From: Candidatus Methanoperedens sp.
GTDB lineage: Archaea; Halobacteriota; Methanosarcinia; Methanosarcinales; Methanoperedenaceae
Assembly: GCA_027460525.1 (NCBI GenBank)
Contig: JAPZAS010000019.1
Span: forward strand, 1-64,000
Length of the DNA: 64,000 nucleotides
Direction of reading: 5' to 3'
Shown here in pieces: positions 6,752 to 54,722 of the stretch. Both the position numbers and the translations under genes were made by a program. The notes beneath the pieces were generated by a model. That model saw only the letters and a program-made list of their open reading frames with translations. It was not told the origin of the DNA and did no database searches. The first letter of the stretch is position 1; each line of letters opens with the position of its first letter.

Positions 6752-8269
6752 ATGGAACTTAAAGTCCAACCACTTCAAATCAAAGCAGGCAAGTATAAAG
6801 TAGTCCTTAATCCACAGGATGCCAAGGAGCTCGGCGTACAGGGGGGAGACCGTGTCCAGTTAAAAGACCACAGCTACTTGACTGCAATCGTTGAGATTGG
6901 CGATATGATTCAAAAAGGTACAGTGGGAGTATACCAGGAATGCTGTGAAAAGCTTGGAAAAGTATGTCCCCTTACGATAGATATCATCCCGACTTTAAGA
7001 CCGAGTTCAGTTGGTTTTATTAAAAAATTTATGGACAAACAGAAGCTCACACAGGAGGAAATCTACCAGATAGTCCAGGATATTGTAAAGGATAACCTCA
7101 CAGAAATCGAGATGTCGGCCTTCGTTACCACCTCATACATCCATGGGATGAGCAGTGATGAGATAGAATGGCTGACAAGAGCAATGATCGACAGCGGCGA
7201 AAAAATCGAATTCGACACGCATCCGATTATGGATAAGCACAGCATAGGAGGCGTCCCCGGCAATAAAATATCGCTGCTTGTGGTTCCTATAATTGCTGCA
7301 AACGGTCTTCTCATACCCAAGACAAGTTCAAGGGCGATCACGGGCGCTGCAGGTACGGCAGACCTGATGGAAGTACTTGCGCCCGTAGAATTCTCGGCTG
7401 AAGAAATAAAGTCAATTACAGAGAAAGTCGGCGGCATAATAGCATGGGGAGGTGCTACAAATATCGCCCCAGCCGATGATAAGCTGATACATATCGAATA
7501 TCCTCTCTCCATAGACCCCCACAACCAGCTTCTGGCATCCATAATGGCAAAAAAGGGCGCTGTCGGGGCTGACTGTGTTGTTATAGACATACCCATAGGC
7601 AGCGGGACCAAGGTTCCTACCATGGATGACGGGAAAAAACTCGCAAGAGACTTAATCGAACTGGGGGAGCGGCTCGGGATGAATGTGGAATGCGCCATGA
7701 CCTACGGCGCATCGCCTGTGGGAAGAACTGTTGGACCGGCAATCGAGGTGAGGGAGGCGTTGAAGGTACTGGAAACAATGCAGGGACCAAACAGCCTTAT
7801 TGAAAAGAGTACGGGTCTTGCCGGAATTTTGCTTGAGATGGGAGGGGCTGCTGCTAAAGGTCACGGCAAGGAGCTTGCAATGGAGACGCTGCGTTCTGGC
7901 AAAGCGCTTGCGAAACTGAAGGAGATGATTGAAGCACAGGGCGGAAATCCGAAAGTAGTGCATACCGATATTAAACCCGGGGAGCATAGTGCAGAACTTG
8001 CATCCCCTGCGGACGGGTACGTCATTGAATTCGATAATAAGCGCATAGTCGAGATTGCAAGGATGGCTGGCGCGCCAAACGATACAGGGGCAGGGGTCTG
8101 GATTCATAAGAAAAAAGGTGAAATAGTTAAGAAAGGCGAGCCCCTGATTACAATTTTTGCTGATAAGAGCTGGAAGCTTACCAATGCTTTAAAAAGCGCG
8201 GAAAAGGATTATCCGATAATCGTGGAAGGCATGCTTCTTGAGAGAGTTCAGACGTTCAAGGTTTTTTAG
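6752..8269 (+). CDS. deoA: AMP phosphorylase (archaeal DeoA type)
   Basis: A 505-residue protein of the archaeal AMP phosphorylase family. It splits AMP with phosphate to adenine and ribose 1,5-bisphosphate. In archaea this feeds the AMP pathway toward ribulose 1,5-bisphosphate and type III RubisCO. Visible are the extra N-terminal domain of about 85 residues that separates the archaeal enzyme from bacterial thymidine phosphorylase, the KHSIGGVPGNK phosphate-binding loop, the SSRAITGAAGTAD block, and the C-terminal glycosyltransferase barrel-sandwich domain. No RubisCO or isomerase gene lies in this window. Confidence 0.93.
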   Translation: MELKVQPLQIKAGKYKVVLNPQDAKELGVQGGDRVQLKDHSYLTAIVEIGDMIQKGTVGVYQECCEKLGKVCPLTIDIIPTLRPSSVGFIKKFMDKQKLTQEEIYQIVQDIVKDNLTEIEMSAFVTTSYIHGMSSDEIEWLTRAMIDSGEKIEFDTHPIMDKHSIGGVPGNKISLLVVPIIAANGLLIPKTSSRAITGAAGTADLMEVLAPVEFSAEEIKSITEKVGGIIAWGGATNIAPADDKLIHIEYPLSIDPHNQLLASIMAKKGAVGADCVVIDIPIGSGTKVPTMDDGKKLARDLIELGERLGMNVECAMTYGASPVGRTVGPAIEVREALKVLETMQGPNSLIEKSTGLAGILLEMGGAAAKGHGKELAMETLRSGKALAKLKEMIEAQGGNPKVVHTDIKPGEHSAELASPADGYVIEFDNKRIVEIARMAGAPNDTGAGVWIHKKKGEIVKKGEPLITIFADKSWKLTNALKSAEKDYPIIVEGMLLERVQTFKVF

Positions 8270-8384
8270 ATTATAGATTCCTGCCTCACAAGAAAATTAC
8301 TCTGACAAAAACCAGCATAAAAATAGCTTTTCCGATTAATTATAGTTGTAATTTAGTTTTTACTTATAACATATAGTAAATACA

Positions 8385-8394
8385 TTTATACATA
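8385..8394 (+). promoter_or_regulatory. Candidate TATA box upstream of the cooS region
   Basis: A TTTATACATA sequence in an A/T-rich stretch lies 53 bp before a small peptide gene and about 180 bp before cooS. It fits the archaeal TATA-box consensus by eye. No BRE or start site can be assigned with confidence. Confidence 0.3.
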
Positions 8395-8437
8395 ATTGGA
8401 GGTTACTTGAATCATACCCAGATCGGAGGTAAAGTAA

Positions 8438-8524
8438 ATGGATTTGTTAAAGAAAATCGTAAATGAAAAGAGAATGGAAATGGGAACGTCTCGGGGGATA
8501 AATCACTTGTGGAAAGCCTTATAG
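8438..8524 (+). CDS. Possible 28-residue leader peptide upstream of cooS
   Basis: A short frame, MDLLKKIVNEKRMEMG then 12 more residues, is preceded by a strong GGAGGT Shine-Dalgarno sequence at about 8425-8430. It ends 39 bp before the cooS start. The peptide is basic and has no recognised family. It could be a regulatory leader peptide, a truncated gene or chance. The strong ribosome-binding site is the only real support. Confidence 0.35.
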   Translation: MDLLKKIVNEKRMEMGTSRGINHLWKAL

Positions 8525-8563
8525 TAAAGTAGATAAAAACAATTAGAAACGGAGTGATATTTT

Positions 8564-10441
8564 ATGGAAACAATTAGTGCACATAAGTCAGTAGTAGAAA
8601 TGTACGGTGTATTGAATAAAGACGGCATGACCAATACTTTTGATCGATTTGATGCTCAGGGAAACCGCTGCACGTTCTGCGACCTGGGTATAAGCTGTCA
8701 GCTATGCAGCAACGGTCCGTGCAGGATAAAAGCCGGGGCAGACCGCGGCGCATGCGGCATCGATGCAGACGGCATGGCGATGAGAAACATGCTATTCCTG
8801 AATACCATGGGAACGTCTACATACACCTTCCATGCCAAGGAGGTAGCAAAAACCCTCAGCGCTACAGCCATGGGGAAAACGCCTTTCCAGATAAAGGATG
8901 AGGCAAAACTCCGAAGTCTTGCAGAGAAGATGGGAATAAAAACAGGGCAGAGCATCAGTATTCTCGCTCCTGCAGTGGCTGATGCCATTATGGCAGGTAT
9001 CAATGCAGATTCGGATGAAGAGCTTCCAAATGTTCTCCTCTTTGCTCCGAAATCAAGGATAGAACTGTGGCGAAAACTCGGCATCATGCCAGGAGGACCT
9101 CTTCATGAAATTATGGATGCGGTTTCAAGCACACAGACCAATGTCGATGGTGATTATGTTTCACTTGCAAAGAAGGCTTTGCGTCTGGGTATTGCATGCA
9201 TCTACGGTTCCCAGATTCCGCTTGAAATGGTACAGGACGTACTTTTCGGAACGCCAAAACCTCATGAGGTTGCGGTGGACATTGGAATAATAGATCCTGC
9301 CTATGTGAATATAGCAGTGAACGGTCATGAGCCCTTCATCGGCGCGGCCCTCATCAAGGCAGCTCATGAGCCAAAAAACCAGGAAAAAGCAAAGAATGCA
9401 GGAGGCAGGGGGCTTCGTATCATTGGTTCGATCGAGACCGGGCAGGAGCTTGTCCAGAGATTTGAGACAGACAATGTATTCGTGGGCATGATCGGGAACT
9501 GGCTCTCCATCGAACCTGCGCTTGCAACAGGCGGCATCGATGTTTTTGCCATGGATATGAACTGTTCACCCCCGGGAATGGGAGCGTACCAGGATAAATA
9601 TAACACTACCCTTGTCTCAGTCTCAAAACTTGTTAACGTTCCGGGAATGAAAGACCAGATAGTGTATAAGCCTGAGGAGGTGGCATCCCAGGCACAGCGG
9701 CTTATAGATATTGCAATAGAGAACTTCAAGAAGCGAAAAGGAAAAATCACAAACAAGTCCAAAAGGAAACAAAACGCTGTTATCGGATTCTCTACAGAAG
9801 CATGCCTCGGCGCTCTTGGCGGCACTCTTGACCCCCTGCTCGATGTCATCAAGAAAGGAACTATTAAAGGTGTGGTGGCTCTTGTGAGCTGCACAACGCT
9901 GCGCGATGGCGGACAGGATATCAATACATTGAAAATGGCACGTGAACTTATCAAGCGCGACATTCTTGTCATAAGCGCAGGATGCGGCAATGCAGCCCTA
10001 CAGGTAGGAGGTCTTACCACTCTTGAGGCTAAGCAGGAAGCGGGCCCAGGTCTTAAGGCGGTATGCGAGCTTCTCAAAATCCCGCCTGTGCTGAGCTTTG
10101 GCACATGCACTGACACGGGAAGAATCACGCTCCTTGTCACTGCTGTTGCGGACGCTCTCGGAGTTGACCCGTCACAGCTTCCAGTTGCAGTTACAGCCCC
10201 GGAGTACATGGAGCAGAAAGCAACCATAGACGCCATCTTTGCCCTGGCTTTTGGTCTGTATACCCATGTGGCGCCCATGCCTCCAGTGGGTGGAGCGCCT
10301 CGGCTTGTGAAACTCCTCACAGAGGATATTGAAGGGCTGACCGGAGGAAAACTTGCTGTTCAGACCGATATGGTTGAAGGGGCAGATGGCATCGAGGCGC
10401 ATATCAACAAAAAGAGAAAAGCCCTTGGACTGCCGGTATGA
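8564..10441 (+). CDS. cooS: Anaerobic carbon monoxide dehydrogenase catalytic subunit
   Basis: A 625-residue Ni-Fe-S CO dehydrogenase of the CooS type, oxidising CO to CO2 or the reverse. The N-terminal cluster-binding region starts at Cys36 (RCTFC) and continues through Cys39, Cys45, Cys48 and Cys53 (CSNGPCR), giving the D- and B-cluster ligands. The C-cluster environment is seen later in NGHEPF, MNCSPPGMG, VALVSCTTL, SAGCGNAALQ and FGTCTDTG. The length is standard. It lies alone, without cooF or an energy-converting hydrogenase, and unlike the Cdh complex it is a single-gene form. A CooC-like nickel-insertion ATPase lies 48 kb away at 58638. A GGAGTGAT Shine-Dalgarno sequence precedes the ATG. 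Confidence 0.96.
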   Translation: METISAHKSVVEMYGVLNKDGMTNTFDRFDAQGNRCTFCDLGISCQLCSNGPCRIKAGADRGACGIDADGMAMRNMLFLNTMGTSTYTFHAKEVAKTLSATAMGKTPFQIKDEAKLRSLAEKMGIKTGQSISILAPAVADAIMAGINADSDEELPNVLLFAPKSRIELWRKLGIMPGGPLHEIMDAVSSTQTNVDGDYVSLAKKALRLGIACIYGSQIPLEMVQDVLFGTPKPHEVAVDIGIIDPAYVNIAVNGHEPFIGAALIKAAHEPKNQEKAKNAGGRGLRIIGSIETGQELVQRFETDNVFVGMIGNWLSIEPALATGGIDVFAMDMNCSPPGMGAYQDKYNTTLVSVSKLVNVPGMKDQIVYKPEEVASQAQRLIDIAIENFKKRKGKITNKSKRKQNAVIGFSTEACLGALGGTLDPLLDVIKKGTIKGVVALVSCTTLRDGGQDINTLKMARELIKRDILVISAGCGNAALQVGGLTTLEAKQEAGPGLKAVCELLKIPPVLSFGTCTDTGRITLLVTAVADALGVDPSQLPVAVTAPEYMEQKATIDAIFALAFGLYTHVAPMPPVGGAPRLVKLLTEDIEGLTGGKLAVQTDMVEGADGIEAHINKKRKALGLPV

Positions 10442-44231: not shown

Positions 44232-45413
44232 CTAGAAATCGGTCATTATCCTGTACTGGTCTATCTCAGGCTGCTTGATTTCTTCCAGGAATTGCTCTGT
44301 CATGGAGCGCACATCCTTGGCTTTGGTGATTGCCCGTCCTACAACTATGATGTCGGCACCCGATTTGAGCGCTTCCTTGACCGTCTCCACGCGAATGCCG
44401 CCTGCGACAGCCACCAGCATTCTTTCCGACAGCTTCTTCATGGCTGGTATGTCGCCCCAGGCATATTCTGTTTTGTTTTCCACGTCAATTGCCCTGTGAA
44501 GCTCCACCACATCGGGTTTCACCGTCAGAGCCTTCAGCACCGAAATCGGTTTTTCAACATTGAGCATGTCGATCACAGCATAGATGCCGGTCTTTTTGGC
44601 TTCCTTTATAGCTTTCTCGATAGTGGAAACAGGCGCAAGCCCTGATATCACGATAGCGTCTGCGGTTGCATCTGCCACCATGCGCGCCTCGAGGTTGCCT
44701 GTATCAAGCGTCTTTAAATCCGCAACCACAAAGGCATTGGGGCGTACCTCTCTTATGGAGTGAACCACATCCACGCCGTATCTTTTAATTAGCGGGGTTC
44801 CAGCCTCGAAAATCAGGTGGTCGCTCTGCGGAACCTGTTTTATTATGTTCTTGACCGCCTCGATATCGGGTATGTCGATGGCAACCTGCAGATAGGGCGG
44901 ATTCCATAACCTCACAACCTTGAATCCCATTATGGGGTGCATGGTTCTGTCCTTCTCGTACATGAGGGTCTTGCTGTCGGGGAAGCCCTGCATCGCCCTC
45001 TCGATCGCAAGTTTCGTGGCGCCGTAGTTGTATCGGTATATCTTATTGTAATCCTTTGCCTGGGGATGGATAAATACGCTCACCACGATGGCGATGTCTT
45101 CCAGTTGTTCTTCAGGGATGACGCCTTCCTGCACGGAATCCGCCACCGCCCTTGCCACCGCTGTCTGCGCAGGTCCGAATATCTGGGCTGCCTGAGCCAT
45201 GTTTTTGACCGTTACCTTTGGCACGATGAGCGTGGCGGGTTTGGTGAGCAGGTTTGGTCTTATGACGGAGAGAAGAGGGGTGTGCCCCACTGACAACTGC
45301 GTGAAACCGTTCGCAAATGCCAGTCCGACAGGTCCTGTTTTCTCTCCGATAATCAAATCAATATGAGCCAGTTCCGGTTCCTCGCCGATTAAAGCCTCGC
45401 CTACTAAAAACAT
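44232..45413 (-). CDS. fae-hps: Bifunctional formaldehyde-activating enzyme / 3-hexulose-6-phosphate synthase
   Basis: A 393-residue fusion. The Fae domain (about residues 1-165, [20 protein letters not shown] on) condenses formaldehyde with tetrahydromethanopterin. The Hps domain (170-393; [40 protein letters not shown]) joins formaldehyde and ribulose 5-phosphate. In methanogens the fusion works in the reverse direction to make ribose phosphates. A broken second copy lies at 47070-47399, beyond an AbiE pair. Confidence 0.95.
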
Positions 45414-45506
45414 CTTATCGTACCTCAGGGCTTAAATTGGTAGTTTGGTATTTATGTATTTCTGCAAGATGGTTCTCCGTCTCCTTGCCTCTCAACTACC
45501 TCCGAA

Positions 45507-46259
45507 TTAAGAGAACGCCTCCAAAATTTCCTTAGCAGTCTTTTCAAAATCGGGAATAAAACTGACCAGAGGTTTAAGCTCTCTCTCCCATATTCTATTT
45601 TTATCCATTAGACTTGTTGTAAACGCAACCAAATCAAAAACCATATCGTAATACTCAAGCTTTTTATTTATGAGTTCGGGATTAAAAGGGATTTTCTTTT
45701 TAATCAAAAACCACGTATCATAGACATCTCTGGCTTTATTCCTTGTCATGATAGCCCTGACCTTTTCAGATAAAATCTCTTCAAGATTCATCATAGTAAG
45801 AAGGTACGGCTGGAGATCCGGGTAAACAGGAACCACCTCATGGATTTCTTCTTTCAGGATAACTTTCTCCCTCTGACTCACTTCCACCCTTTGCACAGCC
45901 ATGCTTCTTGGAGTTCCATCGTAAAGAGGACCTTTTATACTGTAAACGATTACTTCGCTTACATTCTCCATCCTGTTTATTTTCAATTCATTTTCAAGTC
46001 CGAATGTGGCTAAATCAGTCCTGATCCCATAGGCTATATCTTCAATATCCTCTTTTTTGGATGTAAAATCCAGGTCGTCGCTGAACCTGTTAAGCCCGTA
46101 TGCTTTTTGCAGGGCAGTGCCCCCTTTAAGAACCAGCCAGTTGCCTGCGCGCCTTGACAGGAAGAGAAGCAAAATGTGCTGGAGGTAGTCGCTTTCTACC
46201 TGACCCAGGTTATAGCCCAGAATTGATTTCATTGATTCAAGATTTTTTCTACTGAGCAT
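45507..46259 (-). CDS. AbiEii/AbiGii family nucleotidyltransferase toxin
   Basis: A 250-residue protein. VLKGGTALQKAYGLNRFSDDLDF is the G-[GS]-x(n)-D-x-D nucleotidyltransferase motif of AbiEii, and MNLEEILSEKVRAIMTRNKARDVYDTWFL gives the E-K-x-x-A-x-x-x-R-x-x-x-R-D-x-x-D block. In the type IV AbiE system this toxin stops growth after phage infection. It follows the AbiEi-like gene with an 11-bp overlap. Confidence 0.92.
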   Translation of the reverse strand: MLSRKNLESMKSILGYNLGQVESDYLQHILLLFLSRRAGNWLVLKGGTALQKAYGLNRFSDDLDFTSKKEDIEDIAYGIRTDLATFGLENELKINRMENVSEVIVYSIKGPLYDGTPRSMAVQRVEVSQREKVILKEEIHEVVPVYPDLQPYLLTMMNLEEILSEKVRAIMTRNKARDVYDTWFLIKKKIPFNPELINKKLEYYDMVFDLVAFTTSLMDKNRIWERELKPLVSFIPDFEKTAKEILEAFS

Positions 46260-46974
46260 CGGAAAACACCTCGTTTATGATAAGTCTCCATTTAATGTTT
46301 TTCTCTCCTTTTTTCGGAAGAAGGGGATTAAGAAGGTCGTATTTCCTGTTAAGTCGATGTTTCAATTGCTCATAGACATCTATCCCTCTTTTTTCAAGAA
46401 GATAGCCAAGCCTCTTAATTGTCACAACCGAATCCATTCTAAGACCATACTCCACGAGGATATCTGTACTTAGCTTTTCATCTTCCATGGCATTGTAAAT
46501 CTCATCAACAGGACAATACCTGGGAAGAAATAAGGAATCTACGATGAGTTTTTCTTTTTCTGCCACAAATATGAATTTGCCCTGAAATCTTTCTCTGGTG
46601 TATCCGAAAAATCTTTCCTTCTTTAATTTGATAAACTCCAGCGAGTATCCCTTCAGGGTAAGGCTCTTTTTTGACCTGGTGGAAGCGATGTAAATAATTC
46701 CAGGTATCTGGGTTGTTGCTCCGTAATAATAAAGAGCCGTTAAAAAAGACATGTACGATGGAAACACAAGATTGGTGGCTGCAACATAAGGATGGGTACC
46801 TGCGAGGACGTATTTGTCACGCTCCACCGCCTCCACCACACCCTTAGCCTTTAACCTGTTGAGGTAAACGCGGGTGTATTTTTTATCGGCATCGATAACC
46901 TTTGATACATCGTTGACTGTGAAGACAGGCTTTTCGTATGCTTCAAGGGTTCTGATAAAGTCCAGGAGTTTCAT
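46249..46974 (-). CDS. AbiEi-like antitoxin/regulator
   Basis: A 241-residue protein with an N-terminal winged helix (VNDVSKVIDADKKYTRVYLN and RLKAKGVVEAVERDKYVLAG) and a larger AbiEi-type C-terminal domain (NLVFPSYMSFLTALYYYGA). It is expected to repress the operon and neutralise the toxin. It lies upstream of the AbiEii gene in the same operon. Confidence 0.88.
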   Translation of the reverse strand: MKLLDFIRTLEAYEKPVFTVNDVSKVIDADKKYTRVYLNRLKAKGVVEAVERDKYVLAGTHPYVAATNLVFPSYMSFLTALYYYGATTQIPGIIYIASTRSKKSLTLKGYSLEFIKLKKERFFGYTRERFQGKFIFVAEKEKLIVDSLFLPRYCPVDEIYNAMEDEKLSTDILVEYGLRMDSVVTIKRLGYLLEKRGIDVYEQLKHRLNRKYDLLNPLLPKKGEKNIKWRLIINEVFSDAQ

Positions 46975-47069
46975 ATGCTTTAATGAAACTTTTGTTTATT
47001 TAAAATTATCGTTTTTGATAATTATACGTAATCGAAAGTTCAAAAATAAGATAGTCCACAAGCAAGATA

Positions 47070-47399
47070 ACCTCCCCACTACGATTACGCCAGCGCCTGA
47101 TTTAGCGCTTCCTTGGCAGTCTCAACCCGGATGCCTCATGCCACCGCTGTTTGCGCAGGTCCGAATATCTGCGCCGCCTGCGCCATGTTTTTGACCGTTA
47201 CCTTTGGCACGATGAGCGTGGCGGGTTTGGTGAGCAGGTTTGGTCTTATGACCGAGAGAAGAGGGGTGTGCCCCATGGAAAGCTGCGTGAAACCGTTCGC
47301 AAATGCCTGTCCGACAGGTCCTGTTTTCTCTTCAATAATCAAATCAATATGAGCCAGTTCCGGTTCCTCGCCGATTAAAGCCTCGCCTACTAAAAACAT
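47070..47399 (-). pseudogene. Decayed second copy of fae-hps
   Basis: Starts with a near-identical Fae N-terminus (87 codons, [20 protein letters not shown] on). After TAVA it hits a stop, then in the same frame reads IRVETAKEALN, the end of the Hps domain, before the frame fails. The join is at a shared GTGGC-type sequence, so about 260 codons were deleted between short homologies. The promoter side (47400-47450) also matches that of the intact gene. Confidence 0.9.
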
Positions 47400-47516
47400 C
47401 TTATCGTACCTCTCTGCTTAAATTGATAGTTTGGTAGTTATGTATTTCTGCAAAAAGAGAGAACCCAAAAGAGAGAGTGTAAGATTAATATAGAAGTTAG
47501 TTAAAAGGAGGAGATA

Positions 47517-48920
47517 ATGAGGGAAGATGTTCGACCAGAGGGATGTATATGCGAACCCTGTTCGGATATATCGACAAATTGGGAGGATATACGAACCAAG
47601 TTCAGATATGAACGAGTTAGGCGAAATATGCCCCATTACAAAAAGGTGAGCAAATATGAGTTTGAAAAAATTCCTGTAAGTCCGGAGTGGTGTTTTAAAA
47701 ATATCCGTTCAACAGAACAATGGACACACGGTTATCACAGGTATCCTGCTAAGTTTTTACCAAACCTTGTAAAAAAAATTATTGAAGATTACACTCAGCC
47801 AACTGATTTGGTGGTGGACTTCTTTGCCGGTTGCGGAACGACTTTAGTTGAAGCGAAAGTTCACGGCAGACAATCAATAGGAGTTGACATAAATCCTGTT
47901 GCAGAGTTAATTACAAAAGCAAAAATAAATCCGATTGACTCAACGAAACTTGAAACTGAGTTTGAAAACCTCGTTAAAACGTTTGATGACTTTGAACCGA
48001 ATGACTATTCTAAAATTAGCTTACATAACAGAATAGATTATTGGTTTTCTCCAAAACACAAATACAAAATTGCTTTTCTCTACGAGAAAATTTTATCAGT
48101 GCATGATAAAACTGCAAAAGAATTTTTCTTGGTTTCACTATCACACATAATGAAGAATTGCTCTAAATGGTTACAGTCGAGCACCAAACCACAAATTGAT
48201 CCAGACAAAAATCCAACAGACCCTTTCATTGCTTTTAAAACACATACAAAAAAGATGATAAAAAAGAATAATGACTTTTTTAATCAACTCGAAAAAGATA
48301 AATATTTGCAAACATCTTGTGAAATTCGTCTGGAAGATGCACGAAAAACTTCTTTGCAATCTAACTCTGTTGGAGCAATTATTACATCTCCACCATATGT
48401 AACATCATACGAGTATGCAGACATACATCAACTCACAGCATATTGGTATAATTATATCACAGACCTACAAAGTTTCAGAAAAAATTTCATTGGAACATTT
48501 TATTCATTAAATCAAGAAACAAAAGTCGATTCTGAAGTTGGACAAAAAATCGTTAATCAGCTTTTAAAAAAAGATAAACGCAAGGCAAAAGAAGTTGCCA
48601 ACTATTTTAATGATATGCAAGATGTAGCAAGAGAAATGCACCGTGTTTTAAAAGTAGGCGGACATGTTTGTTTAGTAATCGGCAACACAACTTTTTTAGG
48701 GGTGAAAGTAAAATCAGCGGAAGTATTTGCCGAAATTTTAGAATCGTTAGGTTTCAATTTCGTTGACATAATTAAGAGAAGCATTCCCTCTAAGTTGATT
48801 CCAACCATCAGAGACAAACAGACAGGAAAATTTTCAAAACTTGAAAACAAGAACAGCAAATTGGTTTATCCGGAAGAATATATTTTAATCGCAAAAAAGG
48901 TAGAATATGAACATAGATAA
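47517..48920 (+). CDS. Type II DNA methyltransferase (TSPPY, probable N4-cytosine)
   Basis: A 467-residue DNA methyltransferase. The SAM motif DFFAGCGTTLVEA (from residue 101) precedes the catalytic TSPPY (residues 290-294), which favours N4-methylcytosine. An N-terminal stretch (TEQWTHGYHRYPAKF) is typical of this group. Two starts are possible: ATG 47517 with a strong GGAGGAG, or ATG 47628 (MPHYKKVSKYEF), which would leave two palindromes upstream as operator. The gene is AT-rich compared with its neighbours and overlaps the ATPase-nuclease gene by 14 bp. It probably protects host DNA. Confidence 0.9.
   Translation: MREDVRPEGCICEPCSDISTNWEDIRTKFRYERVRRNMPHYKKVSKYEFEKIPVSPEWCFKNIRSTEQWTHGYHRYPAKFLPNLVKKIIEDYTQPTDLVVDFFAGCGTTLVEAKVHGRQSIGVDINPVAELITKAKINPIDSTKLETEFENLVKTFDDFEPNDYSKISLHNRIDYWFSPKHKYKIAFLYEKILSVHDKTAKEFFLVSLSHIMKNCSKWLQSSTKPQIDPDKNPTDPFIAFKTHTKKMIKKNNDFFNQLEKDKYLQTSCEIRLEDARKTSLQSNSVGAIITSPPYVTSYEYADIHQLTAYWYNYITDLQSFRKNFIGTFYSLNQETKVDSEVGQKIVNQLLKKDKRKAKEVANYFNDMQDVAREMHRVLKVGGHVCLVIGNTTFLGVKVKSAEVFAEILESLGFNFVDIIKRSIPSKLIPTIRDKQTGKFSKLENKNSKLVYPEEYILIAKKVEYEHR
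47553..47603. promoter_or_regulatory. Pair of GAAC-N3-GTTC palindromes near the methyltransferase start
   Basis: GAACCCTGTTC (47553-47563) and GAACCAAGTTC (47593-47603) are centred 40 bp apart, about four helical turns. They are set in similar ATAT-x-CGAACC ... GATAT contexts. They look like paired operator sites, although they lie inside the longer possible reading frame. Confidence 0.45.
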
Positions 48921-51360
48921 TGTAGGAACTGTAATAGACAGCATACCCGTAACAATAAGCTATAAAATAATAGAACTTTTTTCTGCTGGACTCTATTCCA
49001 GTCCAAATAAAGCATTTGAAGAATTAGTCAGTAACTCGTATGATGCCGGAGCTTCACAAGTGTCGGTTTATGTTCCGCTTGACAAGAGTTTACCTGAATC
49101 AATTATTTGGGTTGCTGATAACGGTTCTTCAATGAATAAAGCGGAATTAAAACAATTTTGGAAAATTGGAGAATCAGATAAAAGAATAAATGAAAATCAA
49201 GACAGAATGCCAATTGGAAAATTCGGTATCGGAAAACTTGCTACATATGTTCTTACACACAAATTGACTTTGCTTTGCAAAGCAAATGATGGCAAGTATT
49301 ACGCGACAACAATGAATTATTCAAACATTAACAAAGATTCAAGTGAAACTATTTCTCTCGATGAAAAACAATTAACATTAGAAGAAGTGAAAAGCATTTT
49401 ATCTCCATTGATAAAAAAAGGACAGCAAGATTTACTTAAATTTAAACTTTGGGGAGACGATGCCGCAACAACATGGACTTTCGCAATACTATCAGAATTA
49501 AAAACGAAAGCAACAGAAATTAAAGAGGGAAGATTGAAATGGATTCTTAGCACAGCGTTACCACTCAATCCGGGTTTTAATTTAAGTTTTAATGGTGCGG
49601 CAATTCAGTCAAGCAAAGGTGGTATTGAGCCATGGAAAACATGGGTATTCGGAAAAGATGATGAAGTGGCGACTAAGTTTCAATATAGTGTCGGCAGTTA
49701 TAAAGAAAAACCATGTGTTCATTTACCTAATTTAAATAATGTAACAGGACAAATAGATTTATATAGAGATTCGCTTTTAACAGGAAAATCAGCAGATACA
49801 GGACGGAGCAATGGAATTTTTCTCAATGTTAGAGGAAGGCTTGTAAATATTGACGACCCATTAATAGGAATGCCAGCGCTTTCTCATGGTGTATTTAATC
49901 GTGCGAGAATAATAGTTAACGCTGATGAGTTAGATGATTATATTACTTCAACAAGGGAATCAATAAAATCATCAGCAGCACTTGAGAACCTAAGAGAATA
50001 CATACAAAGAAAATTCACTCAAGCAAAAGACTGGTATTTTGCTTCAATGGAAGATGAAGAAAAAAAGAATAGAGCAGCATATAAAATTTCTTATGCTTCT
50101 GCAAGTTTATCAAGAAGACCTTTAATAGTAGTTGCTAAAAAATTTCTTGACGGTGAAATAGGAGATTTAGTTTTAACTGAAATTCCTAATAATTTATCAA
50201 TACAAGAAAAGACAAATTTTATTACAAAACTTGAAGCAGATCTAACAACTGATAAAGGTATAATACAGAATGTACAATGGGTGAATCTGAATCCGGAAGA
50301 TCCAATTGCAAAACTTGAACTTGTAAGTGGTTTTGCTAAAATTAATTTGATGCATCCTTTTTTCGCCAACTTTTTAGAGGAGGTGAAATCGACTTTACCT
50401 TTTGAATTGATTGCGCTAACTGAAATTCTTACGGAATGCCTTTTACTTGATAGTGGCATTAATCAAGACGAAGTAAGAGAGATAATGTTTAAGCGGGATT
50501 CAATTTTAAGGGAACTCACTTTTAGCGACAAACCCAATGCACCATTTGTTGCTTCGCTATTACAAGCATCATTAGGAGATTCAACAGGACTGGAAAAAGG
50601 AGTTACCTATGCTTTCAACTCGTTAGGCTATGAAACTACACATATAGGCGGACCTGGTAAACCTGATGGCAAAGCGGTTGCTTATTTGGGACCATTAAAC
50701 TCACTGGAGAATTACTCCATAACATTTGATGCAAAAAGCACTTTAAAAAATAAGATTAAGGCAACTACTACTCATATAACTGGAGTTGATAGACACAGAG
50801 ATAATTACAAATCTAATTATGCGTGTGTTGTTGCAATTGATTATGAAGGAGCAGACGAACCTAATTCAGCAGTTAATACTGAAGCAAAAAAACATAAGAT
50901 AAATCTTATCAGAGCAAAAGATCTAATGGTACTTGTATTAATATCCAGTCCGAAGCAAATCGGACCAAAACAATTAAGAAACTTTTTTGAAAATTGTCAT
51001 ACAGTAATTGAAACAACAAAATGGATTCAAGAACTGAGAACGAAAGAAGTAGCAAGAGGGCCTATTAAAGAGCTATTAGAAGAAGCATTTAAATCAAATA
51101 AAACCGATACAGAACCATCAAATCTTTATGCTTTAAGAAAAAGTAATCCAGAGTTAATGAAACATTCTTTTGAAAGCTTAAAATCCTTAGTGCAAAGTAT
51201 TGAAAGACTTGTTCCGAACTATATTAGTATTTCACACGATAATATTGTGAGCCTTTCAGCTCCACCGGAGAAAATTTTGAATGCAATTCACCAAACATTA
51301 CCAACGGAAGTTCCGCTTGAGTTTCGTGATATTTATATAAATGCTTTTTCATCAAAATAA
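48907..51360 (+). CDS. GHKL (Hsp90/MutL-like) ATPase fused to a PD-(D/E)XK nuclease
   Basis: An 817-residue protein. Residues 1-350 are a GHKL ATPase: the N-box EELVSNSYDAGAS (Glu39, Asn43), VADNGSSM (Asp71) and GKFGIGKLA (104-112). A second MutL/Hsp90-like middle region follows. Near the C-terminus, E564, GKPDGK (Asp588), and ITFDAKS (Asp609, Lys611) form a complete PD-(D/E)XK nuclease core. INLIRAKDLMVLV follows, like the end of other restriction nucleases. It is the likely restriction subunit for the methyltransferase it overlaps. The DNA is AT-rich and looks acquired. Confidence 0.85.
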   Translation: MNIDNVGTVIDSIPVTISYKIIELFSAGLYSSPNKAFEELVSNSYDAGASQVSVYVPLDKSLPESIIWVADNGSSMNKAELKQFWKIGESDKRINENQDRMPIGKFGIGKLATYVLTHKLTLLCKANDGKYYATTMNYSNINKDSSETISLDEKQLTLEEVKSILSPLIKKGQQDLLKFKLWGDDAATTWTFAILSELKTKATEIKEGRLKWILSTALPLNPGFNLSFNGAAIQSSKGGIEPWKTWVFGKDDEVATKFQYSVGSYKEKPCVHLPNLNNVTGQIDLYRDSLLTGKSADTGRSNGIFLNVRGRLVNIDDPLIGMPALSHGVFNRARIIVNADELDDYITSTRESIKSSAALENLREYIQRKFTQAKDWYFASMEDEEKKNRAAYKISYASASLSRRPLIVVAKKFLDGEIGDLVLTEIPNNLSIQEKTNFITKLEADLTTDKGIIQNVQWVNLNPEDPIAKLELVSGFAKINLMHPFFANFLEEVKSTLPFELIALTEILTECLLLDSGINQDEVREIMFKRDSILRELTFSDKPNAPFVASLLQASLGDSTGLEKGVTYAFNSLGYETTHIGGPGKPDGKAVAYLGPLNSLENYSITFDAKSTLKNKIKATTTHITGVDRHRDNYKSNYACVVAIDYEGADEPNSAVNTEAKKHKINLIRAKDLMVLVLISSPKQIGPKQLRNFFENCHTVIETTKWIQELRTKEVARGPIKELLEEAFKSNKTDTEPSNLYALRKSNPELMKHSFESLKSLVQSIERLVPNYISISHDNIVSLSAPPEKILNAIHQTLPTEVPLEFRDIYINAFSSK

Positions 51361-51521
51361 GATGCCATTGCACAAAAAAATATACTCTTGCAAGCCAAAT
51401 AAAACCAATGCAAGACCAAAGCTTGTAAGAGAGTATTTTTTCTACAGCCCAAAAAGTTCCGATGATTTCCTTCTTAATGGATAGAATTTATAACATCCCG
51501 ATGCCATCTTAGCCTAAAAAT

Positions 51522-54500
51522 ATGCCAAAAAGACCCGACATCAAGAAAGTGCTGCTGATAGGCTCTGGTCCCATAATGATAGGTCAGGCAGCAGAGTTTG
51601 ATTTTTCAGGCAGCCAGGCATGCCGCTCACTGCGAGAGGAGGGCATCAAAGTCGTGCTTGTCAACAGCAACCCAGCAACTATAATGACAGACACCGACAT
51701 GGCGGATGCCATCTACATCGAGCCGCTTGAGCCTGAGATTGTGGCTAAAATCATAGAAAAAGAGCGCCCAGACGGCATTATTGCAGGGCTTGGAGGTCAG
51801 ACCGGTCTTAATATCACAACCGAACTTGCAGAGATGGGGGTGCTGGACAAATTCGGGGTTGAGCTTCTTGGCACATCATTGCAGGCAATCAAGGATTCTG
51901 AAGACCGGGATTTATTCAAGAAGAAAATGTTAAGCATCGGAGAAAAGGTGCCGCGTTCAAAGGCTGTGAAATCACTTGAGGAAGCTGAGGCGCTGATCGA
52001 AGAGCTCGGGCTTCCGCTCATCATACGCCCCGCATACACCCTCGGCGGCGCAGGCGGCGGCATAGCCCATACGCGGGAAGAGCTCCTTGAAATCACAGAG
52101 CTCGGGCTTGAACGCTCAAGGATTCACCAGGTACTCGTAGAAGAGAGCATTATCGGGTGGAAGGAATTCGAGTACGAGGTGATGCGAGACAAGAACGACA
52201 CCTGCATCGTTATATGCAATATGGAGAACTTCGACCCAATGGGCATACACACTGGCGAGTCTATTGTCATAACGCCTTCACAGACCCTGTCCGATGCAGA
52301 CCACCAGAGGCTGCGCAGCACATCCATAAAGATAATAAGGGCGCTCGGAATCGAAGGGGGGTGCAATATCCAGTTTGCCGTTCTCGAAGACGAAGTCCGG
52401 ATTGTTGAGGTTAACCCCAGGGTTTCCCGCTCCTCAGCACTGGCGTCAAAAGCCACAGGTTATCCCATAGCAAGAGTCACTGCAAAAATCGCAATCGGCA
52501 TGACGCTTGATGAGATCACCAATGATATCACCAAGAAAACCCCTGCCTCTTTTGAACCCACCATCGATTACACGGTCGTCAAAATCCCGCGCTGGCCTTT
52601 TGATAAATTCGTCACCGCAGATAAGCATCTCACCACTGCGATGAAGAGCACAGGCGAAGTGATGGCCATCGGCAGGACAATTGAGGAAGCCCTGCAGAAA
52701 GCGGTCAGGTCGCTTGAAGTGGACATGCACTTCGGATACAAGGAGTGGAGCAGCGAGGAAATATTGGACATCCTGCGCAACCCAACGCATGAGCGCCTCT
52801 TCGTCATATACCAGGCACTGCAAAACGGCATGACGATCGATGAGATTTCAGGGCTCACAGATATCGACCCTTTCTTCATAAGGAAAATCAGGAATATCAT
52901 CGATATCGAGGATACGGTAAAAGAAGAGCTTTCCATCGAGAACCTGCGGAGGGCAAAACGCATGGGGTTGAGCGATGATAGAATAGCGTTTTTGTGCGGG
53001 AAAACGAGGGAAGAGATAAACGACATGCGAAGACTGCACGGCATCATTCCCACCTATAAGATGGTGGATACATGCGCGGCTGAATTTGCTGCTGCCACAC
53101 CTTACTATTATTCCACGTACGAGGACCAGTGCGAGGCTTCACCTACCAACAAGAAAAAAGTGCTCATCATAGGCTCAGGTCCTATCCGCATAGGGCAGGG
53201 CATCGAGTTTGATTACTGCACCGTCCATGCGGTTACAGCGCTTCGTGAAGAAGGCATCGAGACCCATATAATAAATAATAACCCTGAGACCGTTTCCACT
53301 GACTACGATACCTCGGACAAACTCTTTTTTGAGCCCCTGACGCTTGAGGATGTCATGAACGTGATAGACAGGGAACGCCCTTATGGCGTGATGGTGCAGT
53401 TCGGAGGGCAGACCTCCGTGAACCTTGCAATTCCGCTCAAAAAGGAACTTGATAGAAGAGCCGACCTGAATACCGTTATCCTGGGAACAACGCCTGACGA
53501 CATGGATATTGCCGAGGACAGGGGACGCTTTAACAGCATGATGAAAAAGCTTGGCATACTTCAGCCAGAGGCAGGGTGCGCCACCAATTACAGCGAAGCG
53601 TTCAACGAGGCAAGAAGAATAGGATACCCTGTGCTTGTCCGTCCCTCCTATGTGCTGGGGGGAAGGGCGATGGAGATCGTGTACGATGAAAGGGACCTTG
53701 AGCGATACCTGAAAGAGGCTGTGAAGGTCTCCAACGAGCATCCGGTGCTCATCGATGATTTCCTGGATAATGCAGTGGAGATCGATGTGGATGCCATATG
53801 CGACGGCAGGGATGTGTTCATCGGGGCAATAATGGAGCACATAGAGGAGGCTGGAATACACTCAGGAGATTCAGCCTGCGTCATTCCCCCGCAGTCCCTG
53901 AAGCCGGAGATACTTGCTGCGGTTCGCGATTATGTAAAAAAGATAGCCCTGGCTCTTCGCGTGGTCGGCGTAATCAACATACAGATGGCAACCAAGAACG
54001 GGTTGGTTTACGTGCTTGAGGCTAACCCAAGGTCAAGCCGCACCATTCCGTTTGTCAGTAAAGCTGTCGGGCTTCCGCTTGCCAAAATAGCTGCCAGGGT
54101 TATGGCAGGGCATACGTTGAAGGAGCTCGGGTACACGAGCGATCCTGTAACGAAGCATGTTTCTGTCAAGGAAGTACTGCTGCCTTTTGATAAACTCCCG
54201 GGCGCCGACCCCGTGCTCGGACCTGAGATGAAAAGCACTGGCGAAGTGATGGGTATAGATTACGATTTCGGAAGGGCCTTTTTCAAGGCAGAGTGGGCTG
54301 GCGATAATAAGCTTCCTCTTTGCGGCACGGTTTTCATGTCAATACGCGATGAAGACAAAGCGCTCATCGTAAAGGTGGCTAAAAAAATGGCTGCTGCCGG
54401 TCTTCGCCTTCTGGGTACGCGGGGCACTGCAGCGTTTTTATCTCGAAACGGGATCAGGATGGAGGTAATAAACAAGGTGAGCGAGGGCAAACCTAACGTG

Positions 54501-54722
54501 GTAGACCTTATCCATAAAAAGGAAGTGGACCTGATAATAAATACCCCAATAAGCAAGCAGACGGTGAAGGACGGTTATCACATACGAAGGGCTGCAGTTG
54601 ACTTCAGCGTTCCCTACATCACCACGATACAGGCTGCGCTTGCTGCTGCCGATGCGATTGAAGCCATGAAGAACGGCGAGATCACGATCAAGTCTCTGGG
54701 CGAATATCACGCAGACCGATGA
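51522..54722 (+). CDS. carB: Carbamoyl-phosphate synthase large subunit
   Basis: A 1066-residue CarB with both synthetase halves. Each begins with an IGSGP-x-x-IGQ-x-x-EFD motif (residues about 13-30 and 550-570), and a C-terminal MGS-like allosteric domain follows. The protein makes carbamoyl phosphate for pyrimidine and arginine synthesis. The small subunit gene is not adjacent. The 3' end overlaps the P-type ATPase gene by ATGA. Confidence 0.96.
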   Translation: MPKRPDIKKVLLIGSGPIMIGQAAEFDFSGSQACRSLREEGIKVVLVNSNPATIMTDTDMADAIYIEPLEPEIVAKIIEKERPDGIIAGLGGQTGLNITTELAEMGVLDKFGVELLGTSLQAIKDSEDRDLFKKKMLSIGEKVPRSKAVKSLEEAEALIEELGLPLIIRPAYTLGGAGGGIAHTREELLEITELGLERSRIHQVLVEESIIGWKEFEYEVMRDKNDTCIVICNMENFDPMGIHTGESIVITPSQTLSDADHQRLRSTSIKIIRALGIEGGCNIQFAVLEDEVRIVEVNPRVSRSSALASKATGYPIARVTAKIAIGMTLDEITNDITKKTPASFEPTIDYTVVKIPRWPFDKFVTADKHLTTAMKSTGEVMAIGRTIEEALQKAVRSLEVDMHFGYKEWSSEEILDILRNPTHERLFVIYQALQNGMTIDEISGLTDIDPFFIRKIRNIIDIEDTVKEELSIENLRRAKRMGLSDDRIAFLCGKTREEINDMRRLHGIIPTYKMVDTCAAEFAAATPYYYSTYEDQCEASPTNKKKVLIIGSGPIRIGQGIEFDYCTVHAVTALREEGIETHIINNNPETVSTDYDTSDKLFFEPLTLEDVMNVIDRERPYGVMVQFGGQTSVNLAIPLKKELDRRADLNTVILGTTPDDMDIAEDRGRFNSMMKKLGILQPEAGCATNYSEAFNEARRIGYPVLVRPSYVLGGRAMEIVYDERDLERYLKEAVKVSNEHPVLIDDFLDNAVEIDVDAICDGRDVFIGAIMEHIEEAGIHSGDSACVIPPQSLKPEILAAVRDYVKKIALALRVVGVINIQMATKNGLVYVLEANPRSSRTIPFVSKAVGLPLAKIAARVMAGHTLKELGYTSDPVTKHVSVKEVLLPFDKLPGADPVLGPEMKSTGEVMGIDYDFGRAFFKAEWAGDNKLPLCGTVFMSIRDEDKALIVKVAKKMAAAGLRLLGTRGTAAFLSRNGIRMEVINKVSEGKPNVVDLIHKKEVDLIINTPISKQTVKDGYHIRRAAVDFSVPYITTIQAALAAADAIEAMKNGEITIKSLGEYHADR

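Follow-up and report, generated by a model that had tools for sequence, protein, structure and literature searches.

The window, a stretch of 64,000 nucleotides from the methane-metabolising archaeon Candidatus Methanoperedens sp., carries a two-gene unit that is probably (at roughly 0.7) a type II-like restriction-modification (R-M) system whose nuclease is gated by ATP. The first gene (47517..48920, forward strand) encodes a DNA methyltransferase (MTase) of the TSPPY type. The second gene (48907..51360, forward strand) encodes a protein of 817 amino acids in which a GHKL ATPase is fused to a PD-(D/E)XK nuclease, as judged from the open reading frame, Pfam, structural models and Foldseek. Both frames were present with the 14-bp overlap (48907-48920) given in a preliminary description of this DNA. 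The MTase matched Pfam N6_N4_Mtase (9e-28) and PADLOC MTase_II (4e-59), and its motif order is X-I-...-IV. Its relatives are annotated as N4-cytosine or PspGI-like enzymes, or adjoin genes of MvaI/BcnI-family enzymes, as in L075 and L077. It is probably of the N4-cytosine type. The ATG at 47517 is a plausible start because a strong Shine-Dalgarno-like AGGAGG (47506..47511, forward strand) lies 5 nt before it. Residues 1-37 (47517-47627) form an extension without a counterpart in any homologue, and this ATG has the best ribosome-binding site. The PADLOC models of type II restriction enzymes matched the GHKL-nuclease weakly, in its N-terminal part.

The GHKL (Bergerat) ATPase domain occupies residues 31-157 (48997..49377, forward strand), with E39, N43, D71 and the G104-K110 loop. 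The profile match predicted for residues 1-350 was obtained there with HATPase_c_3 (3.7e-19). The motifs pointed out earlier (EELVSNSYDAG, DNGSSM, and GKFGIGK) are not a chance likeness, since E39, N43, D71, G73, and the G104-x-FG segment are invariant in the 17 aligned sequences, as is R350 further along. An S5/Hsp90-middle-like transducer region, containing R350, follows at residues 158-400 (49378..50106, forward strand). The full protein was modelled from an alignment of ten sequences (mean pLDDT 78.6, pTM 0.44). The best solved-structure matches of the model in Foldseek were TRAP1/Hsp90 (3.7e-14) and SMCHD1 (2.9e-11). Because these were the top fold matches, an Hsp90/MORC-like ATPase with a transducer is the description that best fits residues 1-400 of the model. 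Of the Hsp90/MutL-like ATPase first proposed, the GHKL assignment and the Hsp90 side held and the MutL side did not. MutL matches were weak and confined to the N-terminus, and MutL orthology was rejected. The global TM-scores against TRAP1 were low (0.28/0.37), and the domain arrangement differs. The pLDDT of the model fell below 50 near R350 and in parts of the lid. When PDB sequences were searched with a profile of the middle region, only chance matches and no sequence-level match to Hsp90 came up. Therefore, the proposal of R350 as a candidate catalytic arginine is drawn from the model and from conservation. R350 sits in TSTRES, which we take to resemble the middle-domain arginine motif of Hsp90. 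The model is poor there, and this likeness is put forward tentatively.

A FokI-like PD-(D/E)XK nuclease core was predicted at residues 562-669 (50590..50913, forward strand), with E563, P586-D587-G588, and D608-A-K610. Residues 528-817 were modelled separately (pLDDT 79.9), and the fold matches in Foldseek were FokI first (5.6e-5), then HindIII, AspBHI, MspJI, and the BspD6I nickase. The modelled core runs in the order of helix 562-572, strands 576-579, 588-592 and 603-610, helix 624-633, and strand 638-643. In the model, the order of elements across residues 562-643 is that of a PD-(D/E)XK core, with E563, D587, D608, and K610 placed as expected. The nuclease core proposed from the motifs GKPDGK and DAK is thus borne out by the fold, with FokI as the best PDB match; the idea was to be given up if residues 540-700 had no predicted nuclease fold, and one was predicted. 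The fold search was needed to see the nuclease because a profile search of this part against PDB sequences gave nothing significant. The anticipated profile match of residues 540-700 to PD-(D/E)XK families failed, and Pfam does not recognise the nuclease. The FokI cleavage domain, FokI_cleav_dom (PF09254), stayed below threshold (E = 0.096; 12.6 bits vs a gathering score of 25). A Pfam match to GDC-P was under the cut-off and was dismissed as chance. E563, the PDG at 587 and the D/E-x-K at 608 and 610 are kept in nearly all of the 17 aligned sequences, the exceptions being L024 (ADG, DAR), L022 (PEG), and L035 (SDA). Towards the C-terminus (residues 740-783; 51124..51255, forward strand), the models showed helices and a hairpin, a helical region that includes a winged-helix-like segment. 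In Foldseek, this part weakly matched MepR/CymR (E about 0.3), and it possibly binds DNA.

Seventeen full-length homologues outside the window were collected (L001-L006, L020-L022, L023, L024, L031-L035, and L073). They were picked by the nuclease gene alone; therefore, linkage to an MTase was not selected for. A DNA MTase gene directly adjoins the GHKL-nuclease gene in 15 of the 17. It lies immediately upstream, mostly overlapping, in 12 (L001-L006, L020, L023, and L031-L034, with L033 ending at a contig edge) and downstream in L021, L022, and L035. Within about 7 kb of the L024 relative (7484-9895), the one with the motifs altered to ADG and DAR, no MTase was found. L073 is without an adjoining MTase, the closest one annotated being several genes upstream. 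The neighbourhood survey suggested for the pair thus found it conserved, and homologues that never stand beside a methyltransferase are not what was seen. The homologues come from Bacteroidota, Fibrobacterota, several archaeal families, and viral contigs. The system was present in 6 of 345 genomes of the window's phylum, in two of the 31 genomes of the genus, in 2 of 297 genomes of the L005 phylum (one being the query's own), and in one of 168 in the L002 phylum. It is sparse but widespread across phyla. In plasmid and phage records, the nuclease gene was matched in its N-terminal GHKL part only. A four-gene version consists of the MTase, the GHKL-nuclease, a Z1-domain helicase-like protein (about 620 aa) and a RecU-like protein (about 155 aa); it was found in L001 (10484-12819), L003 (7613-9927), and L004 (10472-12792). 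The L004 record is labelled Williamsia (Actinomycetota), its locus is closest to the Bacteroidota copies, and the contig is possibly mis-binned. On the viral contig L020 (8856-11939), the pair adjoins a C5 MTase, a FokI cleavage domain protein (6e-17), and a Vsr-like gene, so that several restriction units are stacked on one element.

It is known that FokI needs dimerisation and that GHKL domains dimerise on ATP. In the mechanism that we propose, the MTase would modify some host DNA sequence, probably by methylating cytosine at N4, and thereby mark self. The GHKL-nuclease would act as a dimer. Its two Hsp90/MORC-like ATPase modules would close upon ATP binding and clamp the DNA at or after an unmethylated site. 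Clamping would bring together two FokI-like nuclease domains, whose pairing would be required for cutting both strands. We infer restriction activity, dimerisation, ATP gating, and methylation as the self mark, and likewise the clamp or DNA-state-sensing role of the GHKL ATPase. The R-M operons of paraMORCs are a precedent (PMC2292703), and defence by VcSduA is lost both with mutations intended to block ATP hydrolysis and with those intended to block the nuclease (PMC12137116). The R-M reading is favoured by the MTase linkage, by the retention of ATPase and nuclease motifs in different phyla, and by the TRAP1 and FokI fold matches. It is also favoured by L024, in which the lack of a nearby MTase coincides with altered nuclease motifs, and by the island context beside AbiE in the variable fae-carB slot. 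The low pLDDT near R350, the lack of a middle-region sequence match to Hsp90, the failure of the nuclease to pass any Pfam threshold, and L073 count against it. The trees of the MTase and nuclease also count against it, since they disagree, unlike those of a strictly co-evolving pair.

The disagreement between the trees has support. The nucleases of the window, L001, and L002 form one clade (99/100) with 74-77% identity and no local dip. The L002 MTase is window-like (67% identical). L001 pairs a nuclease 77% identical to that of the window with an MTase that is merely 31% identical and groups with the MTases of L020, L023, L032, and L034 (99/99). The MTase tree has long branches, and the pairwise identities agree with it. 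L031 carries a third MTase type. Besides the MvaI/BcnI neighbours, MTase relatives in L074 (3576-8262) and L076 (764-5620) precede genes for a dual-ATPase protein (HATPase_c_3 plus HATPase_c) and a receiver-like protein of 400-450 aa. A gene pair of the same kind lies 3' of the GHKL-nuclease in L006 (10496-13951). This suggests that one MTase family is used with alternative effectors. Because closely related nucleases pair with diverged MTases and MTase relatives adjoin other enzymes, the MTase is, on these sequence comparisons, an exchangeable module. A further reading, somewhat doubtful at present, is that the family forms an R-M class of its own. Control of the FokI-type nuclease would lie with an Hsp90-type ATP clamp instead of a helicase, and exchangeable MTases would set or share the specificity, one nuclease body being reused with different MTases.

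The same exchange could also mean that the MTase is the specificity subunit as well. The GHKL-nuclease would then have no recognition of its own and would be guided to DNA in a complex with the MTase, as in type I, type III or BcgI-like enzymes, and a swap of the MTase would change the target. The supported conflict over an evenly conserved nuclease and the third MTase type in L031 point in this direction, and the overlapping genes favour a complex. However, the same MTase family adjoins unrelated enzymes (the MvaI/BcnI family and the HEF_HK/receiver-like pairs) and thus works without the GHKL-nuclease. In addition, two diverged MTases could still have one common target, and the winged-helix-like region could recognise DNA. 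The MTase is considered unlikely to be the specificity subunit.

Less probable still is a Shedu-like or DNA-state-sensing nuclease that responds to ends, structures or supercoils, with methylation not serving as the self mark and the MTase being a frequent but separate neighbour. Standalone GHKL-nuclease relatives do exist, namely L024, VcSduA, and many paraMORC3 proteins (PMC12137116, PMC2292703). However, a mere neighbour does not agree well with the linkage in 15 of 17 homologues by short gaps or overlaps, or with altered nuclease residues in the sole relative without any nearby MTase. A decayed or silent passenger, for which the recent acquisition speaks, is very improbable because the frames are open at full length, all catalytic motifs are intact and the ribosome-binding site is good.

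The type II-like R-M reading, in which an MTase gene stands beside a restriction nuclease gene, was compared with known systems. The paraMORCs, described in 2008, are GHKL-type restriction proteins (PMC2292703). The MORC/paraMORC R-M operons of that survey (Iyer et al. 2008) also combine a GHKL+S5 module, a nuclease and a methylase with high lateral mobility. The window protein likewise has GHKL motifs and, after them, an S5-like domain containing a basic residue, R350, and its model matched SMCHD1 and TRAP1 in fold. Most MORC operons in the survey include an SFII helicase (PMC2292703), whereas the window system has none and, unlike its four-gene relatives, lacks the Z1-helicase and RecU-like genes. 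The pair falls within the wide GHKL/paraMORC restriction class put forward in 2008 (PMC2292703), as a family whose nuclease differs and whose partner MTase is of the N4/N6 type. VcSduA (Shedu type I-D, paraMORC3; PMC12137116, PMC2292703) likewise joins a GHKL ATPase and a C-terminal PD-(D/E)XK nuclease in one protein and was antiviral in 2025 tests (PMC12137116). However, its nuclease is DUF4263 and it was presented as a single-gene system. Membership in Shedu/paraMORC3 was rejected, with no DUF4263 Pfam match in the window protein up to E=1 and FokI at the top in Foldseek. In the BbrUII/HgiDII family (NCBIfam NF050001), a type II restriction enzyme directly beside its MTase carries the same GHKL ATPase at its N-terminus. 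The window protein reached 68.7 bits vs a cut-off of 550, the match was confined to residues 16-387, and membership was rejected. A BbrUII-like protein, L072, matched NF050001 almost end to end with 336 bits, which is under the cut-off, and is alignable with the GHKL-nuclease family at residues 12-151 only. The MTase type also speaks against membership: the BbrUII/HgiDII family pairs with a 5mC MTase, its characterised target being GTCGAC (PMC5867850), whereas the window partner is of the N6_N4_Mtase, TSPPY type. The FokI, AspBHI, and MspJI cleavage domains have the same predicted nuclease fold and PDG...D-x-K motif; the GHKL-nuclease is without the FokI recognition domains and has an Hsp90-like ATPase fused instead. 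With Hsp90 chaperones, it has the N-terminal plus middle domain fold in common. Full-length Hsp90-family membership was rejected (37.7 bits vs a cut-off of 455), the C-terminus being a nuclease, not a dimerisation domain. The MZA system was also rejected (MzaB, 26.3 vs 850 bits; no Z1 protein in the window genome). The genes beside the MTase relatives in L074 and L076, and the pair in L006, are similar to the HEF_HK + Response_reg_2 elements beside R-M genes (PMC8011034), an assignment by architecture only; no nuclease domain was detected in their ATPase protein, and mainly C5 MTases are found in PMC8011034.

In the openly searchable literature (subscription papers and REBASE being outside this scope), no paper describing the GHKL-FokI-like family was found, and this branch of ATPase-linked restriction systems is apparently undescribed. 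The preliminary description had taken the class as not wholly new and the fusion and gene pair as worth describing. The novelty is narrower than this implied, given the earlier paraMORCs, BbrUII/HgiDII, and VcSduA. The recurrence of GHKL ATPases in restriction systems has lacked an explanation since 2008. This compact two-gene system makes the clamp-and-dimerise idea directly testable because its nuclease resembles FokI. The natural methylase swap between L001 and the window is a ready-made experiment on the seat of specificity.

The pair lies in an inserted block of about 6 kb (45468..51518) between fae-hps (44232-45413) and carB (51522-54722), delimited by comparison with the congener G007 (L068), in which the block is absent and the flanks are 90 bp apart. 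The same block contains an AbiEi-AbiEii toxin-antitoxin pair (45507..46974, reverse strand; PADLOC AbiEii 7e-93, AbiEi 3e-57). BLASTN of the window against itself revealed a second copy, of 315 bp, of the fae 5' end and its upstream DNA (47139..47453, reverse strand), which is 94.6% identical to 45153-45467. The two copies flank the AbiE block, and the repeat marks the boundary between the AbiE and R-M blocks. Because of this duplication, integration of the block via recombination at fae is suggested, and the congener L066 (3654-3799) retains remnants of a similar event. The GC content is 33-37% in 48-52 kb vs about 45% around, and the window nuclease groups with the bacterial copies (74-77% identity), not with that of the congener G001 (47%). 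The earlier view that AT-rich DNA reflects transfer is thus backed by composition, phylogeny, and the empty site, and the R-M pair was acquired as part of a mobile defence block. By its grouping, it probably moved from a bacterium to an archaeon, which would make the locus a documented case of a defence unit entering a mapped hotspot. Cargo of other kinds fills this gap in further congeners, namely a Fic-like gene, a protease-like gene, or a methyltransferase with a GNAT-like gene (identities by eye), and the gap is an integration hotspot in the genus (L066-L068 and L070 vs the window). The window genome also encodes MCR alpha.
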